Of a stretch of 37,117 nucleotides of DNA, positions 197 to 33,182 are shown one piece after another. Made by a program: the position numbers and the translations under genes. The notes under the pieces are model-generated. The model was not told where the DNA came from. It was given only the letters and a program-made list of their open reading frames with translations, and made no database searches. The stretch's first letter is position 1. Each line of letters starts with the position of its first letter. The DNA is from a bacterium. GTDB taxonomy: Bacteria > Armatimonadota > UBA5829. The stretch covers positions 1 to 37,117 of the forward strand of contig JAJFTD010000017.1 of assembly GCA_021373255.1 (NCBI GenBank), in the 5' to 3' direction.

Positions 197-283
197 TTGC
201 ATTTTATCTGGAATTCTGATGGAATATCTTATGGATCGCTGCATCTTTCATGTGGAAACGCACACGAGATTGGAGCAAATGAA

Positions 284-2380
284 GTGGAAGACCAGAAATT
301 AATTGAGGCTGTGTTGTCGGGTGATGTGGGGGCATTCAACCCGCTTATGGACCGTTATTATACGATGGTCTATCGCCTGTGCCTCAATATGAGCGGCAAC
401 GTGCCTGATGCTGAAGAGTTGACGCATGATTCATTTGTGGAAGCCTATTTGAAGCTGGGGCAACTGCGTGAGCCGGACAGATTCGGCGGGTGGCTTAAGA
501 CGCTCGCTCTCAATGTCTGCCGGATGTGGTATCGCCGCAATCAGCAGAGTGTAGTTGAATTGGCTGAGGATCAGGTTGCAGTGGTCGACGATATTGAAGA
601 CTCCTCGATCCGCGCGAGAATGTCTTATGGCCTTCACACGCTGTCCACGCCTCATCGCCTGGTGTTGGCACTTCATTATTATGAGGAACTATCATACGAC
701 GAAATAGCAGTGTTCCTGGAAGTGCCAAAGGGAACAGTGATGAGCCGGCTCCACCGTGCGCGCCAAGCATTGAAAGAGGTAATGGAACAAATGACTGAAT
801 ATGAAGAGATACCTGCCGTTCCTGATGACAGGTTTAAGGAAGTTGTTGAGGCTGAGATTGCGGTGCTGTTGAGGATGTTTGGGGACGAGCCCAACGCCCC
901 CGAGCGCCTGACCCTGGTCCTTAAAAAGTCACCGCTGCGTCTTATGGACCTGATAGCAGGCGCGGATGTCACGGAGACACTTCGGAATATGGCTATTCTG
1001 CTGCCGCACCTGGGAAGCGAAGCCGTCGATACCATTCTGGACTGCCGGTTCTCCACAGACCAGCGCCTGGCTTCTAAGACAGATGAGTTGCTGCAAATCT
1101 ATGCGTCCAGATGTGGGACAATCCCCCAGCGAGAGGGCATGACCGATATGGCTTCGAGAGAGGCGTATCTAATACTGGACCGATTGATCGCTCATTCGGC
1201 AGATGATCAATCAAAGGCAGAGTTATTGCTCACGATGATGGAAGCGTGCGAAGAAGCATGCCCCGTGCTGTTGTTTACGAACGCATTGATGTGCTATGAA
1301 CAAGCAGCGTTCCCGTTCCTGATGGATCACTTCCTTACGGACTCAAAGCAATCTTCCAGAGTCCTGCATGCGTTAGTCAGAACCGGGGCACGCTTCGGGA
1401 GCAGAATGCTGGAGTTGATTAAGAGCGACGACCCAGGGATGCAGGCTGTGGGCCTATCGGGATGTGAAGCCATCGCGCGGTCACTGTGTCCTTCATGGCT
1501 GAACGGCTTCACCCGTGAGCAGTTCCTTAACGACCTACGCACCCGCGAGAAGTGGCCACCGTTGCGTGTTGAAGATATCGGCAGCGGTTTGATCACGGAC
1601 CTGACGCGAGAGACAGCTTCTCTAGTCACCAATGGGCCGGAACACTTGCGTGCCCCGGCGGTTCGGGTTTTGGGATACCTGAGAGCAGCCGAATACTCAG
1701 AAATTATCCAACAACGTCTCTCGGATAATGATCTCGCAACCCGCATGGCTGCGATTTTCGCACTTTCCGAGATCGGTGACGGAGCCTCCGCGGATGCGCT
1801 CATCAGCCGTGCGCAAACTGGCGAGGTGCCTGAAAAAGCCGCAGCTATTGCTGCACTTGGCCGCCTTCAGATCGGGCATGCGGAGCATGTCATGGTCGAG
1901 ATGACGAGTGATGAGGATGAGCAAGTGCGTGAAGCGGCTGTGGCTGCACTTGGTGAAATGGGCACCGTCAGCTCGCAAGTGGTGCTGCAGGAGTTGATGC
2001 GCGGCAGTGATCCAAGAATGCAAAAGGCTGCTGCAAAGGCAGTCTTCGGTGGTGTTCAGCGCAAGAAGCCGGAGCTTTCCGATGTTGGTCGAAGACTAGC
2101 CGAAAAGCGGCGAAAAGTGACCCCCGTGGCGATGATCTCGCCCGATGCCGTCTTGCGCTTCGAGTTAACTGAAATACGAACTTACGACGAACGCGACCTT
2201 ACAGACCGAATCGCCCGAGTCTGCCTTGACTACTGTGCTACAAGGCGCTATATGATCGAACTCGGCCTGATGACCAGGTTCGGGGGCGTCTATGAGTTTA
2301 CTGAGATCGGAAAGTCAGCCTGGCGGGTGGAGCAGTTTATTTGCGAGAGGTACTTGGCGAAGCCTGCGATGGTGGGGTAG
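284..2380 (+). CDS. ECF-type sigma factor fused to HEAT repeats and a DUF2087-like C-terminal domain
   Basis: A 698-residue protein. Residues about 1-165 are a sigma-70-like ECF module: region 2 (LIEAVLSGDVGAFNPLMDRYY, DAEELTHDSFVEAYLKL, GGWLKTLALNVCRMWYRR) and region 4 helix-turn-helix (LSYDEIAVFLEVPKGTVMSR). A long helical middle follows, and about residues 430-610 contain several HEAT/PBS-lyase-type repeats (RAPAVRVLGYLRAAEYSE, TRMAAIFALSEIGD, EKAAAIAALGRLQ, VREAAVAALGEMG). The last ~70 residues (TYDERDLTDRIARVCLDYCA, RRYMIELGLMTRFGGVYEFT) match the pattern of DUF2087, a small domain often found in transcription regulators. I start at GTG 284 because GGAG at 272-275 is 8 nt upstream; the longer reading from 197 would overlap the terminator. 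No anti-sigma gene is adjacent, so the C-terminal extension may regulate the sigma module. Functional role is inference. Confidence 0.88.
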   Translation: MEDQKLIEAVLSGDVGAFNPLMDRYYTMVYRLCLNMSGNVPDAEELTHDSFVEAYLKLGQLREPDRFGGWLKTLALNVCRMWYRRNQQSVVELAEDQVAVVDDIEDSSIRARMSYGLHTLSTPHRLVLALHYYEELSYDEIAVFLEVPKGTVMSRLHRARQALKEVMEQMTEYEEIPAVPDDRFKEVVEAEIAVLLRMFGDEPNAPERLTLVLKKSPLRLMDLIAGADVTETLRNMAILLPHLGSEAVDTILDCRFSTDQRLASKTDELLQIYASRCGTIPQREGMTDMASREAYLILDRLIAHSADDQSKAELLLTMMEACEEACPVLLFTNALMCYEQAAFPFLMDHFLTDSKQSSRVLHALVRTGARFGSRMLELIKSDDPGMQAVGLSGCEAIARSLCPSWLNGFTREQFLNDLRTREKWPPLRVEDIGSGLITDLTRETASLVTNGPEHLRAPAVRVLGYLRAAEYSEIIQQRLSDNDLATRMAAIFALSEIGDGASADALISRAQTGEVPEKAAAIAALGRLQIGHAEHVMVEMTSDEDEQVREAAVAALGEMGTVSSQVVLQELMRGSDPRMQKAAAKAVFGGVQRKKPELSDVGRRLAEKRRKVTPVAMISPDAVLRFELTEIRTYDERDLTDRIARVCLDYCATRRYMIELGLMTRFGGVYEFTEIGKSAWRVEQFICERYLAKPAMVG

Positions 2381-25694: not shown

Positions 25695-28600
25695 CTAATC
25701 GAATGTTGCCCTAAAGTCGATTCGGGCTATGGTGTCGCCTTCATTGGGGTTGATTTTGCTCTTGTCCACGCCGGATTTCTTTTCAGCACTGAGTGTGATA
25801 TACCTGTCTGCGGCCATTTTCTGGTCGTACTTGATGCGGAAGACATTGTCATCGTCCAGCGTGAATCCATCCAGGAGGTGGCAGCGGCCGAAGTAGAACT
25901 CGAATTGCGCGTCGTTTGGCAGTATGCCTGCAAAGCCCAGTCCGGCTATGCGGGCCATTCGGTTGCTGGAGTCGTTACGGTCGATGGTGTAGTCGGCTGT
26001 CATAGTCAGCTTGCTAGTGAGCGTGTGGGTGAGTTTCATTGAAGTACCACCCACCGGTATAAGCGCGCCATTCTGACCGTCCTTGCCGAAGTAGGTGGTG
26101 TAGGCGAAGCGGGTTCCTTCGGACAGCTTTACATCAAATGCATTATTTCGTTTTATTCCTGGTTGACCTGATGGGGTAATCAGATCTTGCTTGAAGAACT
26201 TGATGTGATACCACGCTTTCGGGTCTTTATTTGTCTCATATTGCAGGATACGGGAATGGTAGTACATCCCATTTTTCTTATTCAGCTTATCACTGTTGTC
26301 TATAAGGAAATTTCCGCCGCCTATTATACCAGTCTGGAACTTGAATGCATTGTCGCAGCCGGTCTGCTTGCCTAGGGCAGTCGTAGTGTTCAGCCCCGAG
26401 CCCACTTGAATGTTGTTGAAGATCAGGAACCTCTTGATCACGAGCCCGTTCAGCGCGAACTGCCGCGCGCGCTGGCTTCCATTAGACCCGCTGTCCCGGT
26501 TAGCCAGGCTCATTGTCAGCTTCACATCCTTGTTGATAGACCAGTCCAACCCAAGACTGCCACTGATTTCAGATGGATCAGCCTCACGATCTGTCTGCGA
26601 GAGTGAAGTCACCAACGCCATATTACTCGTCATCCGGGTTTTCACTCCCAACGATCGAGTGTTGACGAACTTACCGTTGCCGAGGTCCGTGTTGACGGTA
26701 TCAATATTGAACGCCAACGGCGCTTTCTGATTAGATTCCAGGTGCGCCTCAACGACTTGAGTGTTCACCGGTGCGTCGGTGCCCTCCTGCGAATAGTTGG
26801 TGTCACTGGAACCCCTTACATGCAGGCCGCCGAGGAAGTTGAAGCTGTTTTCAAAGCTGTATCTGCTGCGGGAATAGCTGGACAGATTTCCCTCGTGCGA
26901 CACATAAGAGCACTCATCGTGGAACGCGCTTATCTTCGTGCCGTTTTTCGGGTCAAAATTCAATTTATATCTGTTCTGTCCACGAGTTTGTCCGGCGGTG
27001 GTGTTGCTGGAATCGTAGAAATAGGTGTCTATATTCAGGTCTTTAGTGGCCTGGAAGTTAATCGCATAATCTGCACGCTTAAATCCGCGTTCGCGGAGCA
27101 GGGTGTTTCTGTCGGCATCTGACAGGTCGAGTATTCTGCTGAAATTCTGATCGATATCCTGGAAGTTGGCATGCAGCTTCAGCCTGTTGTTCTTGAGGTC
27201 GATACTCCTGCGGGTCAACATTGCTCCCTGGTCATCGCGCACACTGGTGTTGTCCAATGCAAGATCGCCAAATGAGAGCTTAAGTGATCCGCCCATGGAC
27301 ATACGGGACATACCATATTCGTTTCCGAATCTGGATTGTTCGATTGGCTGCAAACTGGAAATCCTGCCGAACGTGCTGTCTATGTTCTGGTGGCTAAAGT
27401 AGGCGCTGAAGGTCTTTCCAGCCATGTTGATTGCGCTTCGATTCAATCCGCCTTTATTCGAGTCAACATTAGATAATGTGAGCCAAGTATCGACCGCGCC
27501 GCCGTCAACTTGCACAACATAACTGGACCTATTCAGCCCAGCCTCAGAGTTGATCTTCGCCTTGTCCTGTGCGGTCACATCTGATGCCTTCGCGCCGGGT
27601 TGGAACTGCTGGCGCGCCGTCAGAGCCATGCGGGTCCGCTCACTGTCATTAAGCGCGCTCATCTTATCAAATGTAGGGTCCATTGTGCGCAAATCGGCCT
27701 GGACTTTTACCCTGCCCAGGTCGGCTTCAACGGATTTGATCGACATTACACTGCCGCCACTTTCGATCTGGGTCATCGTGAGTCCAGAGATAGGAGATAC
27801 CCCGCCCGATGCATCCCCGGCAAATTGCAGCGCATACTGTGTGCGTCTCGCTCCGGCTTCTGCCGCCATCTGAGCACGATCCGACTCCTTGAGGTCGCCG
27901 AAACGAGTGAAGTTCTTACCCACTTCTCTGCTGCTGAAGTTGAACGAGAACCCCCCTCCACTGTAGCCGAACGCCTGGTTGGAGATGTCATCATTAGCAT
28001 CACTGATCCGGCCGAATGCGAAGTTGAAACCACCCGTCGTGCCTGTTGGCAGCTCTGCCGCTAAATTGGTCCTGCTGATGCCCTTTTCTTTCTCAAGCTG
28101 ATTGATTATATCCGACTCCGCCGCGTTTGAGTCACGCATCGAAGCAAAACCGCTGAAGTCTTTGCCGACATCCTGGAACCCTAACGTCACCTTTGCCTTG
28201 CCCGCGTTGATATTAGCGCCCTGCACGAACAAGTGGTCCTTTTTGGCATCCGTGGACGCGCTCGGTGCCTTTGATGACGTGCCGGTCAGCGACATCCTTC
28301 CCGACGATTCCGGCGACGAGAAGTAAACCATGCTGTTGAGATTTGAGGTTCCGTTAAGTTTAAGCGACGAGCTGAGCCCATAAGTAACCACATTGCGAGA
28401 GTTGCTGCTATCCAGCGCACGGGTACTGTAGACGGTGTTCAGGTGCAGTGCATCGCCAAACATCGCAGGAGCAAAACTAAGCCCCGAAGATGCTCTTTTG
28501 GGTGCATCTTTGGAATAGAGATAATCGACCCTTACGGTGTCCCCTTCACGGGCGGGCTCAACGAGGTAGATGGTGCCGGACTCGTAATTGATAGTGTAGT

Positions 28601-28877
28601 CTACATTCTTGCGGGCACGCTTAATTCCAACATACACCCACTCGCTTCCGGGTATCACCCCGCCATGCTCCAGGCTATAGCCAGCCGCGCTGCCATGCCC
28701 ACAGAGGACCTCACTCGCAGAAAGACTTTCATTGACTTTTGTGGTCGGTGTGGTTGTAGCGGTTGTCTCTCCCACTGTTTTCAGAGGCGTGGCTGCAGTG
28801 TCCGTTGCCGCGTCCCCAAGAACGCCGCACGGCATCATAAACGCCAATATTGCGATTATGCCCGCAACCTTCCTCAT
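25695..28877 (-). CDS. Large secreted protein with repeated internal motif, probably an outer-membrane beta-barrel
   Basis: A 1060-residue protein with an N-terminal signal peptide (MRKVAGIIAILAFMMPCGV, cleavage near GDA) and a low-complexity Thr/Ala stretch. Residues about 55-125 hold a beta-rich domain (PGSEWVYVGI, NVDYTINYESGTIYLVEPA) similar in style to strand motifs of large secretion-associated proteins. At about residues 236, 318, 399, 498 and 574 a motif recurs, spaced about 75-100 residues apart: (V/I/M)(D/G)xxF(S/T)x(I/F/M)xxL, then a polar stretch, then ExGΦxR and a beta strand (examples DVGKNFTRFGDLKESD, NIDSTFGRISSLQP). The C-terminal ~450 residues are Asn/Asp/Ser-rich alternating strands ending in an aromatic Phe-Asp, consistent with a barrel. 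I choose ATG 28877; TTG 28892 is adjacent to GAGGG. It is downstream of a zinc-finger anti-sigma gene on the same strand. Confidence 0.75.
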   Translation of the reverse strand: MRKVAGIIAILAFMMPCGVLGDAATDTAATPLKTVGETTATTTPTTKVNESLSASEVLCGHGSAAGYSLEHGGVIPGSEWVYVGIKRARKNVDYTINYESGTIYLVEPAREGDTVRVDYLYSKDAPKRASSGLSFAPAMFGDALHLNTVYSTRALDSSNSRNVVTYGLSSSLKLNGTSNLNSMVYFSSPESSGRMSLTGTSSKAPSASTDAKKDHLFVQGANINAGKAKVTLGFQDVGKDFSGFASMRDSNAAESDIINQLEKEKGISRTNLAAELPTGTTGGFNFAFGRISDANDDISNQAFGYSGGGFSFNFSSREVGKNFTRFGDLKESDRAQMAAEAGARRTQYALQFAGDASGGVSPISGLTMTQIESGGSVMSIKSVEADLGRVKVQADLRTMDPTFDKMSALNDSERTRMALTARQQFQPGAKASDVTAQDKAKINSEAGLNRSSYVVQVDGGAVDTWLTLSNVDSNKGGLNRSAINMAGKTFSAYFSHQNIDSTFGRISSLQPIEQSRFGNEYGMSRMSMGGSLKLSFGDLALDNTSVRDDQGAMLTRRSIDLKNNRLKLHANFQDIDQNFSRILDLSDADRNTLLRERGFKRADYAINFQATKDLNIDTYFYDSSNTTAGQTRGQNRYKLNFDPKNGTKISAFHDECSYVSHEGNLSSYSRSRYSFENSFNFLGGLHVRGSSDTNYSQEGTDAPVNTQVVEAHLESNQKAPLAFNIDTVNTDLGNGKFVNTRSLGVKTRMTSNMALVTSLSQTDREADPSEISGSLGLDWSINKDVKLTMSLANRDSGSNGSQRARQFALNGLVIKRFLIFNNIQVGSGLNTTTALGKQTGCDNAFKFQTGIIGGGNFLIDNSDKLNKKNGMYYHSRILQYETNKDPKAWYHIKFFKQDLITPSGQPGIKRNNAFDVKLSEGTRFAYTTYFGKDGQNGALIPVGGTSMKLTHTLTSKLTMTADYTIDRNDSSNRMARIAGLGFAGILPNDAQFEFYFGRCHLLDGFTLDDDNVFRIKYDQKMAADRYITLSAEKKSGVDKSKINPNEGDTIARIDFRATFD

Positions 28878-28970
28878 TTTAGCTAAACCCAACCCTCTGT
28901 GTGCGTTAGCAGTAATATCGACTGCAACAAATGCACAAAGTCCACCTTCGTAGACTTTGAAAATAACTTT

Positions 28971-29873
28971 TTAGAATCTCGCTTTTACAAAACTTACATG
29001 GCTCGCTTGCTCTCCACCCTTGCGCATCGCGGCCATTGCTTTCGCGTCAGCTATCCATTTTTCCGTGTCTTCTTTACTAATCATCGGACCATTGGAGACT
29101 TTCACCGATGCCAGCCTTATATTCTCATCAGAAGCAGGCTGCGGTGTCGGCTCAGGCTTTGGAGCGGTCGCCACTTCTACTTGTTTCGGTTCCGGGAGCG
29201 CGTCTGCCTTAGGCTGTGCAGGTTTTACTGCGTGAGCCATCTGCATCTTTGTGCTCTTGTGAATAACGCGTTTGGAACTCGGAGCCGAAGCCACTGTTTG
29301 AAGCTGGTGACTCGCCTTAGGCGTCCTTACTCTGTATGTCTCATGAACGTGCACAGTTGAGGCTTTCGCAAGTTGCCTTACTGGTGGCCCTGCGGCTACC
29401 TTCGCTTGCACAGCATGTTCCACTGGTCGTGGAGAAACAGTTGCGGAGGCGGTCTGAGACGGTCTGGGACTTTCAAAGGAGGTTCTTCTAGGCAATTGCT
29501 GTTGGTGTTGAGGATTATTCGAGATAACGGCAAACACAACCGCCCCTGCGGCGACGGCACCGGCAGCCCATTTAGCAGCTCGGAGTGACATAACACTCCC
29601 CAGCCACAATCCAAAGCTCACTCGGACTGGTTGCTTTGTGCTGCAGACAGCTTCTTTTTCATGGATCGCTGCCAGGATACTTGCTTTTAATCCGGCAGGA
29701 GGTTCGGCATCCATAATCTCCCCAGCGGTCTGAACCATCGCTGAAAGGGATGCAAGCTCCTCGCGGCAATCTTTGCACTGTCTAATATGTGCTTCCATCA
29801 TTTCCAGGGTGCGCTCATCAAGCATCCCGTCTAAATAGAAGCTCAGATTATCTCGTACCTCGCGGCATGTCAT
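28971..29873 (-). CDS. Zinc-finger (ZAS) anti-sigma-like membrane protein with long Pro/Ala/Lys-rich tail
   Basis: 300 residues. The N-terminus (MTCREVRDNLSFYLDGML, then H29, C33 and C36 in EAHIRQCKDCREEL) is the zinc-binding anti-sigma domain. A single membrane helix is at about residues 98-117 (AAKWAAGAVAAGAVVFAVIS). The remaining ~180 residues are Pro/Ala/Lys/Gln-rich and probably periplasmic, with no folded domain visible apart from a helical end (ISKEDTEKWIADAKAMAAM). Start is ATG 29873 after a G-rich site; GTG 29882 is an alternative. It diverges from the ECF sigma operon, whose own anti-sigma has the same H29/C33/C36 register. The repeat-protein gene follows after 93 bases, so the two are probably co-transcribed. 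It may be an alternative anti-sigma for the same sigma, or a separate sensor. Confidence 0.85.
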   Translation of the reverse strand: MTCREVRDNLSFYLDGMLDERTLEMMEAHIRQCKDCREELASLSAMVQTAGEIMDAEPPAGLKASILAAIHEKEAVCSTKQPVRVSFGLWLGSVMSLRAAKWAAGAVAAGAVVFAVISNNPQHQQQLPRRTSFESPRPSQTASATVSPRPVEHAVQAKVAAGPPVRQLAKASTVHVHETYRVRTPKASHQLQTVASAPSSKRVIHKSTKMQMAHAVKPAQPKADALPEPKQVEVATAPKPEPTPQPASDENIRLASVKVSNGPMISKEDTEKWIADAKAMAAMRKGGEQASHVSFVKARF

Positions 29874-29895
29874 CAGACCCACCCCCGCACAGTGT

Positions 29896-29919
29896 GTTTC
29901 GAGAACAAGTTCCCGAAAC
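29896..29919. promoter_or_regulatory. Palindrome in the divergent spacer
   Basis: Arms GTTTCGAGAAC (29896-29906) and GTTCCCGAAAC (29909-29919) are inverted repeats with one mismatch and a 2-nt centre. The core GAAC-AA-GTTC resembles a dyad operator. It is about 20 bases before the anti-sigma start on the minus strand and could control that gene. Confidence 0.45.
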
Positions 29920-30012
29920 GGAAACGCGCTGTCGCGCTTAAGCGTTGCTCGTTTCTATTGGGTTGGACAATTTGAAATGGGCAAAGTAACAGATTTTTTA
30001 GAATTTCCTTAT

Positions 30013-30037
30013 GGAACGAATGTTATTACAAGTCGTC
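30013..30037 (+). promoter_or_regulatory. ECF-sigma promoter of the sigma/anti-sigma/RseB operon
   Basis: GGAAC (30013-30017), a 16-nt spacer and CGTC (30034-30037) are the classic RpoE/SigW-type promoter layout. It lies 68 bases before the sigma gene start, implying autoregulation of the operon by its own sigma factor. Confidence 0.75.
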
Positions 30038-30105
30038 GAAACCCTTAGAAGGCAGTTTGCTGTAATTTCCTGCGTCTGATACTATCTATAAGGGCTAAGG
30101 TTGAT

Positions 30106-30741
30106 ATGGAAGCCTACGCACCAAGCACAATAAGGATAGCGTTAACCGGACAAGTGGGAATGGACGGCTATACTGACCAACAAATAGTTGAGCGTGTTCT
30201 GGCGGGCGAGATGGACGCTTTTTCCGTATTGGTAGACAGGTACCAAGACCGGATATTCAGCGCCGTGTTCAACTACGTCTATAACCACGACGATGCGATT
30301 GATATCACGCAAGAAGCGTTTGTCAAAGCCTATTCCAGGCTGAAAAGTTTCAACGCGAGTTCCGCTTTTTACACATGGCTGTATAGAATCGCTGTGAACT
30401 CGGCTATAGACTTTTTACGAAAGCGTAAGTCCCGTCCTGCTGATTCGCTGGATGATGACAAGTTCTCAGAGATCGGCTTCGAGCCGGTTTCGCATGACGC
30501 ATCAACGGACCCGGAAAAGGTTGTTGTGAGGTCAGAGCAGGTCCAGACTCTCAGAAAAGCCATTGCGTCGTTATCGAGCAAGCTCAAGAGTGCGCTGATA
30601 CTGCACGATGTGGAGGGCTTGTCTCAGGAGGAAGTCGCCGAGATACTGAATGTGCCGCTGGGTACCGTAAAATCTCGTGTTTCCAGAGCACGTGTTGAAC
30701 TCAGGAATCTGCTCCGGAAACAAATAGGTGAAAGTTTATGA
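30106..30741 (+). CDS. ECF RNA polymerase sigma factor (RpoE/SigW-like)
   Basis: A 211-residue sigma factor. Region 2 is at about residues 22-95 (QIVERVLAGEMDAFSVLVDR, DAIDITQEAFVKAYSRLKSF, WLYRIAVNSAIDFLRKRKSR). A linker with acidic residues is followed by region 4 (IASLSSKLKSALILHDVEGL, QEEVAEILNVPLGTVKSRVS). Start is ATG 30106 with AAGG 5 nt upstream. Its stop codon overlaps the start of the zinc-finger anti-sigma gene (ATGA, 30738-30741), the typical co-expressed sigma/anti-sigma arrangement. A matching ECF promoter lies at 30013-30037. It probably governs an envelope-stress response; the signal is unknown. Confidence 0.95.
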   Translation: MEAYAPSTIRIALTGQVGMDGYTDQQIVERVLAGEMDAFSVLVDRYQDRIFSAVFNYVYNHDDAIDITQEAFVKAYSRLKSFNASSAFYTWLYRIAVNSAIDFLRKRKSRPADSLDDDKFSEIGFEPVSHDASTDPEKVVVRSEQVQTLRKAIASLSSKLKSALILHDVEGLSQEEVAEILNVPLGTVKSRVSRARVELRNLLRKQIGESL

Positions 30742-31232
30742 ATTGCAGAACTGCTGCTGTCGTGATGTCTGAGTATTTGGATGACTGCCTTCCCGGCCAT
30801 GTGCGTCTAGAGTTTGAAATACACATTAATGAATGCCGGAGATGCGCAGACGAGCTTCAGTCAATGCAGAATATGTTGACGCGTCTTGGCTCGTTGTCTG
30901 TGAACAACTCTTCGGTCAACTGCTGGCCGGGAGTGAAGCAGTGCATCGTCGAGAGGCGTTCCTCCAGGCGCACCCGCAGCCCATGGTTTATGAGGGTTGC
31001 CATTGGAGCCCCGGCTTTCGCGCTCACGATTCTGCTGGTCGTGCTGCTTCTGCTTCCCGGTGGCGTTAAAAATGAATCGACAGCTCCGGAAGTATCAGTG
31101 CCGGAGTATTCGTATTACATCTCAGCTCATTCGCATGCACAGCGCCAGCAGGCTCTCAGCGATCCACATGTCAGCCTTGTTGCCGCCGAACTCGAGAAAG
31201 CCAGCCTAACTGAAGATACTATGCGACCATGA
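30738..31232 (+). CDS. Zinc-finger anti-sigma factor, membrane-anchored (RseA/RsiW-like)
   Basis: 164 residues. The N-terminal ZAS domain has MNCRTAAVVMSEYLDDCLPG and the H29/C33/C36 set in EIHINECRRCADEL. A single membrane helix lies at about residues 88-108 (FALTILLVVLLLLPGG), and a short periplasmic tail follows. Known anti-sigmas of this type hold the sigma at the membrane until regulated proteolysis releases it. It overlaps the sigma gene by 4 bases and the next gene by 4 bases, so all three are coupled. Confidence 0.92.
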   Translation: MNCRTAAVVMSEYLDDCLPGHVRLEFEIHINECRRCADELQSMQNMLTRLGSLSVNNSSVNCWPGVKQCIVERRSSRRTRSPWFMRVAIGAPAFALTILLVVLLLLPGGVKNESTAPEVSVPEYSYYISAHSHAQRQQALSDPHVSLVAAELEKASLTEDTMRP

Positions 31233-32149
31233 TGACAAAGAAAATCGTTACAACTCTCTTAGCAGCGCTTTCCTTGCCGGCTGTTGTGTTTGGTGCGAAC
31301 GCGACTGAGGTTTTGAAACGAGCTGAAGTGGCGGATCAGCGGGTGAGCTATCGCGGGGTGAAGGTAGCCACGTTCAGGTTCAATGGCAGGTCGACTGTTT
31401 CCTCGTTCAAAGTTATCCACATGGTTCCTGACCTGACCCGTGTGGAATTCTTCAGCCCTGCGTCACTGAGTGGTATGGTGGTTATCCAGGATGGATCAAC
31501 ATCGTGGAAGCTGCGTCCCAGATCTCAATGCTGGGAAGAGTCCGGTGGGCAAAGCGTGCCTGCGATGGGCATGATTCACCAGGAAGCTTTACAGAATTAC
31601 GATCTGCGTATAGCTGGCTCGGATACGGTTGCCGGACGCCCTGCGTATGTTATTCATGCAATACCCAAGAGCAAGGAAGAAGCCGCGCATCGTGTCTGGG
31701 TAGATAAAGGTTGCTTCCTTGTGATGGGCACCCAGGTCGAGAGTCCGCGTGGTTTTATATTGAATTCATCCCGCTACTCCAGCATACAGATTAATCCGGG
31801 GAATATATCACATTCGCTGTTCAAAGTAAGTGGAAAGGTGAAATGCCAACCGAAGCCTGGCAGCACAGCGATGAATGTGGTCAAGCCATCGTATCTGCCC
31901 AAAGGCTACAAGCTGGTGGCGGTGTCGAGGATGTCAGTGAATGGATCGTGTTGCGCTCATATGCAGTTTTCCAATGGTGCCAATTCGATATCTCTCTTCC
32001 AACGCAGGGCACACTGCGAGTCCCCGCAAACGTCGATAAAGAGCAAGATGACCAATGTCATCACCTGGGCGCATAAGGGAGTGCTTTTCACACTGATGGG
32101 CAGCGTCCCGCGCTCTGAGCTTCGCAAGATAGCTGATTCCACAAGATGA
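31229..32149 (+). CDS. RseB/MucB-like periplasmic sensor
   Basis: A 306-residue exported protein: signal peptide (KKIVTTLLAALSLPAVVFG, cleavage near ANA), then a LolA/RseB-like half-barrel (VLKRAEVADQRVSYRGVKVA, ADLTRVEFFSP-type strands, VVIQDGSTSWKLRPRS, AGRPAYVIHAIPKSKEEAAHRVWVD) and a C-terminal domain with YLPKGYKLVAVSRM and SLFQRRAH, as in MucB/RseB. RseB binds misfolded outer-membrane or lipid signals and shields the anti-sigma from proteolysis. Start is ATG 31229 (ATG-ATG), overlapping the anti-sigma stop. Its presence makes the operon a sigmaE-rseA-rseB-like triad. Two Cys near VNGSCCAHM may form a disulphide or be an oddity. Confidence 0.82.
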   Translation: MMTKKIVTTLLAALSLPAVVFGANATEVLKRAEVADQRVSYRGVKVATFRFNGRSTVSSFKVIHMVPDLTRVEFFSPASLSGMVVIQDGSTSWKLRPRSQCWEESGGQSVPAMGMIHQEALQNYDLRIAGSDTVAGRPAYVIHAIPKSKEEAAHRVWVDKGCFLVMGTQVESPRGFILNSSRYSSIQINPGNISHSLFKVSGKVKCQPKPGSTAMNVVKPSYLPKGYKLVAVSRMSVNGSCCAHMQFSNGANSISLFQRRAHCESPQTSIKSKMTNVITWAHKGVLFTLMGSVPRSELRKIADSTR

Positions 32150-32198: not shown

Positions 32199-33182
32199 GT
32201 GATAATAAACAACCTGATTGACACAATAGATGCACGGCTGTTGGAGCTGATCCAGAGGGACTTTCCGCTCGCTCACAGGCCATTTGATGAGATCGCGGCG
32301 CGGCTGTCGATATCGTCCATTGATGCCATCTCACGTACCTCACGATTGAAATCTCAGGGGATAATCCGGCAGATCAGTGCGATATTTAATTCTTCGGCTT
32401 TGGGCTACAGCAGCGTGCTGGTGGCGTTTAGGGTGGGGGATGGCTATCTGGAGAACGTTGCCGCAGCCGTTTGTGCGAACCCCGGAGTAAGCCACTGCTA
32501 CTCCCGGAGTGATGACTTCAACCTCTGGTTCACTCTCACACTCAGTCCCGAATCAGACCTGGGTAGAGAAATCGCCGGGCTCGCCAGTCTGGATGGTGTG
32601 CAATCACACATGATCCTGCCCGCCTTGAAAGTCTACAAGATCGGCTTGTTTCTCAAGCTGACTGATGATGCCATTGGTCCGGTTTCATGGACCATTACGC
32701 AACCAACCCGGCACGAACTCACGAATCTGGACCGCGCAGTAGTTCTCGCCCTCCAGCAGGATATTCCGATCATTGAGGAACCATTCGCACGCATTGCCGA
32801 CCATGCGGGGCTGCAGGAGGATATAGTCTTCCAGCGTGCAAATGCATACAAAGCCGATGGCACCATGCGCCGGTTCGCCGCGGTTCTCCGCCACGGGCAG
32901 GCGGGGTATAAGGCCAACGCAATGGTTTGTTGGCAAGTGGACTCCGAGAAGATCGATGAAGTAGGGGAGCAGTTCGCCCAAAACCCCCACGTGAGCCATT
33001 GTTATGAGCGCGCGCAATACCCCAATTGGCCATACTCGCTCTACACAATGGTCCACTGCCTAGATGACCAAGAACTCGATCAAATCATATACAAACTTGC
33101 CGAAATTTGCGGTGGCTGTGATCACAGAGTACTCAAGACGGTGAAAGAGTATAAGAAGACACGTGTGGTGTATTTCCGGTAA
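32199..33182 (+). CDS. Siroheme decarboxylase, AhbA-AhbB fusion
   Basis: A 327-residue protein with two Lrp/AsnC-like halves. The first half (DARLLELIQRDFPLAHRPF, GIIRQISAIFNSSALGYSS, VSHCYSRSDDFNLWFTLTLS) is AhbA-like. The second (DRAVVLALQQDIPIIEEPF, ADGTMRRFAAVLRHGQAGYK, ANAMVCWQVDSEKIDEVG, VSHCYERAQYPNWPYSLYTM) is AhbB-like. AhbA and AhbB normally form a heterodimer that decarboxylates siroheme to didecarboxysiroheme on the siroheme-dependent heme route; similar NirD/L/G/H proteins act in heme d1 synthesis. Here both are one chain. Start is GTG 32199. No other heme genes are nearby. Annotation as a plain AsnC regulator is less likely. Confidence 0.88.
   Translation: MIINNLIDTIDARLLELIQRDFPLAHRPFDEIAARLSISSIDAISRTSRLKSQGIIRQISAIFNSSALGYSSVLVAFRVGDGYLENVAAAVCANPGVSHCYSRSDDFNLWFTLTLSPESDLGREIAGLASLDGVQSHMILPALKVYKIGLFLKLTDDAIGPVSWTITQPTRHELTNLDRAVVLALQQDIPIIEEPFARIADHAGLQEDIVFQRANAYKADGTMRRFAAVLRHGQAGYKANAMVCWQVDSEKIDEVGEQFAQNPHVSHCYERAQYPNWPYSLYTMVHCLDDQELDQIIYKLAEICGGCDHRVLKTVKEYKKTRVVYFR

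Follow-up and report, generated by a model that had tools for sequence, protein, structure and literature searches.

A zinc-finger anti-sigma factor paired with a giant predicted outer-membrane barrel in Armatimonadota, and an unlinked ECF sigma factor as its most likely target

We analysed a stretch of 37,117 nucleotides from a bacterium of the phylum Armatimonadota (contig JAJFTD010000017.1 of assembly GCA_021373255.1), hereafter the window, in which an operon for an extracytoplasmic function (ECF) sigma factor lies back to back with the gene of a second zinc-finger anti-sigma factor, ZAS2, and that of a giant predicted outer-membrane barrel. We consider it reasonably probable that these genes belong to two separate ECF circuits: a sigma/RseA-like/RseB-like operon on the plus strand, and a promoter-ZAS2-barrel unit on the minus strand that would be under the control of sigma-TB, an ECF sigma factor encoded elsewhere in the genome, with sigma-TB as the target of ZAS2 and with feedback. 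The genome of the window (G000; 4.19 Mb in 201 contigs) was compared with its relatives, G001 to G060. The main features are as follows.

25695-28877, minus strand: predicted giant outer-membrane beta-barrel protein, 1060 amino acids (phylum-wide orthologues adjoining ZAS2; AlphaFold2; Foldseek)
28971-29873, minus strand: ZAS2, second zinc-finger anti-sigma factor, 300 amino acids (zf-HC2, AlphaFold2, RsiW profile, hydropathy, C-terminal conservation)
29966-29991, minus strand: predicted ECF-type promoter of the ZAS2-barrel unit, TGTTAC-N16-TGTC with an upstream A-tract (conserved upstream of ZAS2)
30013-30037, plus strand: predicted promoter of the sigma operon, GGAAC-N16-CGTC (upstream of all readable sigma orthologues)
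30106-30741, plus strand: ECF sigma factor of the RpoE/SigW type (Pfam and NCBIfam matches; orthologues in 11 relatives)
30738-31232, plus strand: RseA-like zinc-finger membrane anti-sigma factor (zf-HC2, membrane segment, ATGA overlaps)
31229-32149, plus strand: RseB-like periplasmic regulator (MucB_RseB N- and C-terminal domains)
G000, contig C138, 42865-43377: sigma-TB, unlinked ECF sigma factor, between the TamB and BamA genes

The ZAS2-barrel unit

ZAS2 and the barrel gene are a two-gene unit across Armatimonadota. Homologues of ZAS2 and of the barrel were searched for and genes were called in 35 loci: ZAS2 stands directly upstream of the barrel gene, in the same direction, in 30 genomes whose sigma-TB status is clear and additionally in G017.

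The listed open reading frame of ZAS2 (28971-29882, minus strand) begins with a GTG at 29882; as the family starts with M-x-C in the alignment, the ATG at 29873 is the likelier start. The protein comprises a zinc-binding anti-sigma domain (residues 1-78; zf-HC2 with E 4e-12 in Pfam and 50.3 bits in the genome search), a membrane segment predicted from hydropathy at residues ~99-118, and a Pro/Ala/Lys-rich tail. In the AlphaFold2 model the domain folds into four helices (3-15, 20-32, 34-54 and 62-78), with a predicted local distance difference test score (pLDDT) above 94 for the first 50 residues and lower confidence beyond, and a further helix (107-118) falls within the probable membrane segment. 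Among solved structures, that of RsiW in complex with SigW (5wuq) comes closest: the ZAS2 profile matches RsiW over the whole domain (E 1e-9), and 5wuq is also the best Foldseek match, with a probability of 0.99 but an E-value of 0.17. The zinc ligands C3, H29, C33 and C36 are invariant in 24 aligned members. ZAS2 thus carries both the zinc motif and the four-helix fold of class I zinc-binding anti-sigma factors (zf-HC2/ZAS) and is, by its domain, an inner-membrane member of this class, with a probable membrane segment and a tail of the exported type. Variants of this layout occur: two tandem anti-sigma domains are present in genus g3 and in families f2 and f3, and family f11 has no recognisable zinc ligands but keeps the gene and the neighbouring barrel gene.

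The long Pro/Ala/Lys tail had already been noted in a preliminary description of this DNA. It is a low-complexity region of ~180 residues that is disordered in the AlphaFold2 model, with a helix (267-285) near its end. Its C-terminus, ...VSFVKARF in the window, is conserved throughout the phylum: the residues at -8 and -6 are hydrophobic in 31 of 31 sequences and that at -5 in 29, position -2 is Arg or Lys in 24, and the last residue is Phe in 29 of the 31. None of 48 other zinc-finger anti-sigma factors ends in Phe; two proteins of this comparison set that do, at L161 and L163, are ZAS2 orthologues. The end of ZAS2 resembles that of the barrel itself (L-7, F/Y-5, F-1), but the hydrophobic register differs.

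The barrel gene is co-directional with ZAS2 and starts with the ATG at 28877, the start of the listed open reading frame being a TTG at 28892. No Pfam family and no PDB profile matched its product. The AlphaFold2 model (pLDDT 81.9, predicted template modelling score 0.50) contains 48 strands of at least 8 residues, and its Foldseek matches are mostly outer-membrane barrels, i.e. LptD, SprA, TonB-dependent receptors and SlpA, with low TM scores of 0.2 or below by query length. The 1060-residue protein is hence predicted to be an outer-membrane barrel; the structural matches are too weak for an assignment as SprA or LptD. Its 48 predicted strands compare with 36 in the barrel of SprA (PMC9581022); should they close into one barrel, the protein would rank with the largest barrels built from a single chain.

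ZAS2 is preceded by a conserved element consisting of an A-tract, TGTTAC (or TGTAAC, TGCAAC), a spacer of exactly 16 bases and TGTC or TGTT (AGTC in two cases). Of 29 genomes scanned, 24 have it, in each case with the spacing of 16, and a pattern search added a 25th, G025; in family f11 it reads TGCAAC-N16-TGTC. By simple base counting, one match is expected by chance in ~0.4% of 250-base windows. The pattern TGTWACWTTN13TGTY matched 32 times across 28 genomes of the class, and 20 of these sites are at ZAS2. From this conservation we infer that the element, like the different one of the sigma operon, would act as a promoter.

Intergenic TGTTAC-type sites also precede genes for SurA/PpiD (G000), a secreted cyclophilin (G002), an M16 peptidase (G011) and BamA (G010, G013). 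The BamA site, in genus g3, is the only one away from ZAS2 that recurs between genomes. A wider TGTTAC-N16-TGTC regulon was considered and rejected, as the sites away from ZAS2 are at control level. The site in the window genome (L234:5658-5683, plus strand; TGTAAC-N16-TGTT) lies ~30 bases before a SurA/PpiD-like foldase gene; it is a single case, at a site number expected by chance.

A candidate target sigma factor between TamB and BamA

In G010 and G013 an ECF sigma gene lies behind TamB, and the ZAS2-type promoter before BamA, with its spacing of 16, comes right after this sigma gene; in G006, also of genus g3, a TGTTAC element with a spacing of 17 lies between the sigma gene and BamA. The genes of this locus were identified by Pfam matches (TamB, E 5e-27; POTRA, E 2e-35; Omp85, E 6e-35; Sigma70_r2, E 2e-18). 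Most of the phylum has a clear orthologue of the sigma factor, sigma-TB (~E 1e-35 or better). Its gene is flanked by BamA on one side and by TamB, or a different gene, on the upstream side, and in nearly all loci read no anti-sigma gene adjoins it.

The presence of ZAS2 tracks that of sigma-TB. All 30 decidable ZAS2 carriers contain sigma-TB, and ZAS2 occurs in none of the 12 genomes without sigma-TB. The resulting table of sigma-TB and ZAS2, from which G017 and G024 were left out because their contigs are missing or cut, reads 21/0/0/5 within the class and 30/0/0/4 among barrel-bearing genomes (Fisher p ~2e-5, ignoring relatedness). In G005 and G009 TamB directly adjoins BamA, so that only the sigma gene is gone, and ZAS2 is gone as well. 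Four genomes with a barrel and no ZAS2 (G008, G012, G038 and G051) have neither a ZAS2-type promoter nor sigma-TB. Because of this co-occurrence and co-loss, the lack of another anti-sigma gene at the locus and the promoter element shared with BamA in one genus, sigma-TB, rather than the neighbouring sigma factor, is most likely the target of ZAS2.

Several observations weigh against this assignment. Seventeen genomes of other classes have sigma-TB and no detectable ZAS2-barrel unit, so sigma-TB can exist with another regulator or with none. The p-values overstate the evidence, since the genomes are related, and there may have been only two or three independent losses. In most genera no ZAS2-type promoter was found before sigma-TB or BamA, and the total of sites away from ZAS2 does not exceed that of a reversed-pattern control. 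A mirror-tree analysis of the ZAS2 domain was not discriminating, with partial correlations of 0.55 for sigma-TB and 0.49 for the neighbouring sigma factor.

ZAS2 might instead be the anti-sigma factor of some third ECF sigma factor that uses TGTTAC-N16-TGTC, the link to sigma-TB then reflecting shared outer-membrane biology only. The ZAS2 promoter precedes none of the 27 sigma-region-2 genes of the window genome, which is compatible with such a factor and also means that autoregulation does not identify the cognate sigma factor; this route to it was therefore discarded. Several sigma factors of the window genome moreover lack an adjacent anti-sigma gene. On the other hand, sigma-TB tracks the presence and co-loss of ZAS2 without exception among ZAS2 carriers, other sigma factors having been profiled less fully, and the ZAS2-type promoter precedes BamA in genus g3. 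We therefore regard a third sigma factor as rather unlikely.

The adjacent sigma operon

On the plus strand, the genes form an ordinary system of the RpoE/RseA/RseB kind with its own predicted promoter. In a single operon it combines an ECF sigma factor (Sigma70_r2, E 1e-17; r4_2, E 1e-16), a membrane anti-sigma factor and a two-domain RseB (MucB_RseB N-terminal domain, E 4e-12; C-terminal domain, E 3e-9). The zf-HC2 match of the RseA-like protein, at 21.9 bits, is slightly below the Pfam cut-off of 22.2; the protein has a membrane segment with a mean hydropathy of 2.7 and, judged by the operon structure, is probably the cognate anti-sigma factor of the adjacent sigma factor. Close orthologues of the latter, with 59-80% identity, were found in 11 relatives, and GGAAC-N16-CGTC precedes all 11 readable sigma orthologues. 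The preliminary description, made from the sequence alone, had named an ECF sigma factor, two zinc-finger anti-sigma factors and an RseB-like gene at 28971-32149, all of which are borne out. It was likewise correct about the translational overlap, an ATGA at both the sigma/RseA-like and the RseA-like/RseB-like junction, and about the common register of the two anti-sigma factors, which share C3/H29/C33/C36 when ZAS2 is counted from its ATG.

According to the same description, the second anti-sigma factor would sense the barrel and compete for the neighbouring sigma factor, which would make ZAS2 a rival of the RseA-like protein and a barrel-sensing arm of one circuit. The identical zinc-finger register would suit this proposal, as would the divergent arrangement of ZAS2 and the sigma operon in two genera and the finding that, within the family, genomes lacking a sigma factor of the 30106 type also lack ZAS2. 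It can further draw on family f4, in which the genes of a different ECF sigma factor and of its own zinc-finger anti-sigma factor closely precede ZAS2 in the same orientation (L082:5980-7446, L085:9654-11169); by this layout, sigma/anti-sigma pairs became neighbours of ZAS2 at least twice.

The linkage and co-regulation with the 30106 sigma factor that a second arm on the same sigma factor, of the RseA/MucA kind, would entail were, however, not found. Close sigma orthologues are present in 12 genomes, the window genome included; the operon adjoins ZAS2 in five of them (G000, G002, G003, G006 and G010), lies 3.6 kb away in G004 and is not near it in five others (G001, G007, G011, G015 and G017); in G013 both loci reach contig ends, which leaves adjacency unreadable. 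Outside the order, ZAS2 is kept with only distant homologues (~41% identity or less) of the 30106 sigma factor. No RseB-family gene was detected anywhere in the ZAS2-bearing genomes G019 (one contig, 98% complete), G023, G025 and G033; the RseB score is also zero in G007 and G011, but their sigma loci stop at contig ends. Finally, the ZAS2 promoter is unlike the conserved promoter of the sigma operon, and for this reason the suggested dependence of barrel expression on the window sigma factor is unsupported. What stands of the proposal is the tie of ZAS2 to the barrel, as a gene pair kept together phylum-wide; the divergence from the sigma operon is confined to two genera, and competition for the neighbouring sigma factor appears distinctly improbable.

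That ZAS2 is no longer a sigma regulator and serves as a membrane-anchored scaffold, its tail being a periplasm-spanning tether that assembles or positions the giant barrel, would fit the strict pairing, the conserved C-terminus and the unrecognisable zinc ligands of family f11, but we consider it highly improbable: the cytoplasmic four-helix domain is the best conserved part of ZAS2, with zinc ligands invariant in the aligned members, a pure tether would need neither this domain nor its own ECF-type promoter, ZAS2 is missing where barrels persist without sigma-TB, and class I anti-sigma factors without zinc are common (PMC7406223).

Three observations concern the surroundings of the operon and other sigma genes. 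Directly after RseB, a single gene of 327 amino acids (32199-33182, plus strand) encodes the siroheme decarboxylase subunits AhbA and AhbB as a fusion. Another contig of the window genome, C129, carries a second sigma/anti-sigma/RseB-like operon (L153:2513-4628). At the beginning of the window, an open reading frame of 727 amino acids (197-2380, plus strand) starts like an ECF sigma factor, with a Sigma70_r2 match, and continues with repeats that by eye look like the HEAT type; it is possibly a sigma-repeat fusion.

Proposed mechanism and relation to known systems

In the preferred reading, with sigma-TB as the target, ZAS2 would hold this sigma factor at the inner membrane, and the long ZAS2 tail, with the conserved amphipathic strand and the carboxylate of Phe at its end, would report on outer-membrane protein assembly or on the partner barrel. 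Loss of contact, or proteolysis triggered through the tail, would free sigma-TB, which would then drive transcription of ZAS2 and the barrel, a negative feedback, and in certain lineages also of BamA. Binding, release and sensing are all inferred here, as is what the C-terminal end of ZAS2 might bind. In a more far-reaching form, which is speculative and on balance doubtful, the system would be a phylum-wide homeostat of outer-membrane assembly unlike RseA/DegS, in which an orphan sigma factor embedded between TamB and BamA is controlled by an unlinked anti-sigma factor whose periplasm-spanning tail imitates, with its terminal strand and Phe, the C-termini of outer-membrane proteins and directly reads whether the assembly machine or the giant barrel is occupied.

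With SigW/RsiW of Bacillus and other class I anti-sigma factors, ZAS2 shares the N-terminal four-helix zinc domain, the single predicted membrane segment and the extracytoplasmic tail. RsiW is encoded together with its sigma factor. ZAS2, in contrast, is encoded apart from its presumed sigma factor and together with an outer-membrane barrel, and differs further in its low-complexity tail, the conserved C-terminal strand ending in Phe and the tandem domains of some families. The plus-strand operon equals RpoE/RseA/RseB/DegS of Escherichia coli and AlgU/MucA/MucB/AlgW of Pseudomonas in gene order and domains. In those systems, C-terminal peptides of outer-membrane proteins ending in Phe activate DegS/AlgW, the proteases that cut the anti-sigma factor (PMC8545111). 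ZAS2 differs from RseA: no RseB partner adjoins it, its partner is a barrel, and a conserved Phe forms its own C-terminus.

An inner-membrane anti-sigma factor genetically tied to an outer-membrane barrel is also found in FecI/FecR/FecA. In that system the barrel, FecA, is a TonB-dependent receptor that carries a signalling domain, and the anti-sigma factor, FecR, belongs to the FecR family. The only Pfam match of ZAS2 is zf-HC2 and the barrel has none, which sets the unit apart from FecIRA. The likeness of the barrel to SprA, LptD and other large barrels in Foldseek comes with low TM scores.

The type of the plus-strand operon and the class I anti-sigma domain of ZAS2 are already known; the strict pairing of ZAS2 with a giant barrel, its separation from the probable sigma factor, the TamB-sigma-BamA locus and the tail with its conserved terminal Phe are new. 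Nothing on ECF or anti-sigma systems of Armatimonadota was found in the literature searched. A published survey, which left open whether ECF sigma factors without a neighbouring anti-sigma gene are controlled by orphan anti-sigma factors or in another way, took its anti-sigma factors from ECF neighbourhoods (PMC7406223), so that an orphan pair such as sigma-TB and ZAS2 would escape this approach. For many ECF sigma factors, the gene neighbourhood contains no anti-sigma factor, and sigma-TB and ZAS2 are a concrete candidate for such a pairing, backed by phylum-wide co-loss. The finding points to a circuit for outer-membrane-assembly stress around TamB-sigma-BamA in a little-studied diderm phylum, with a putative sensor tail that resembles the ends of outer-membrane proteins.

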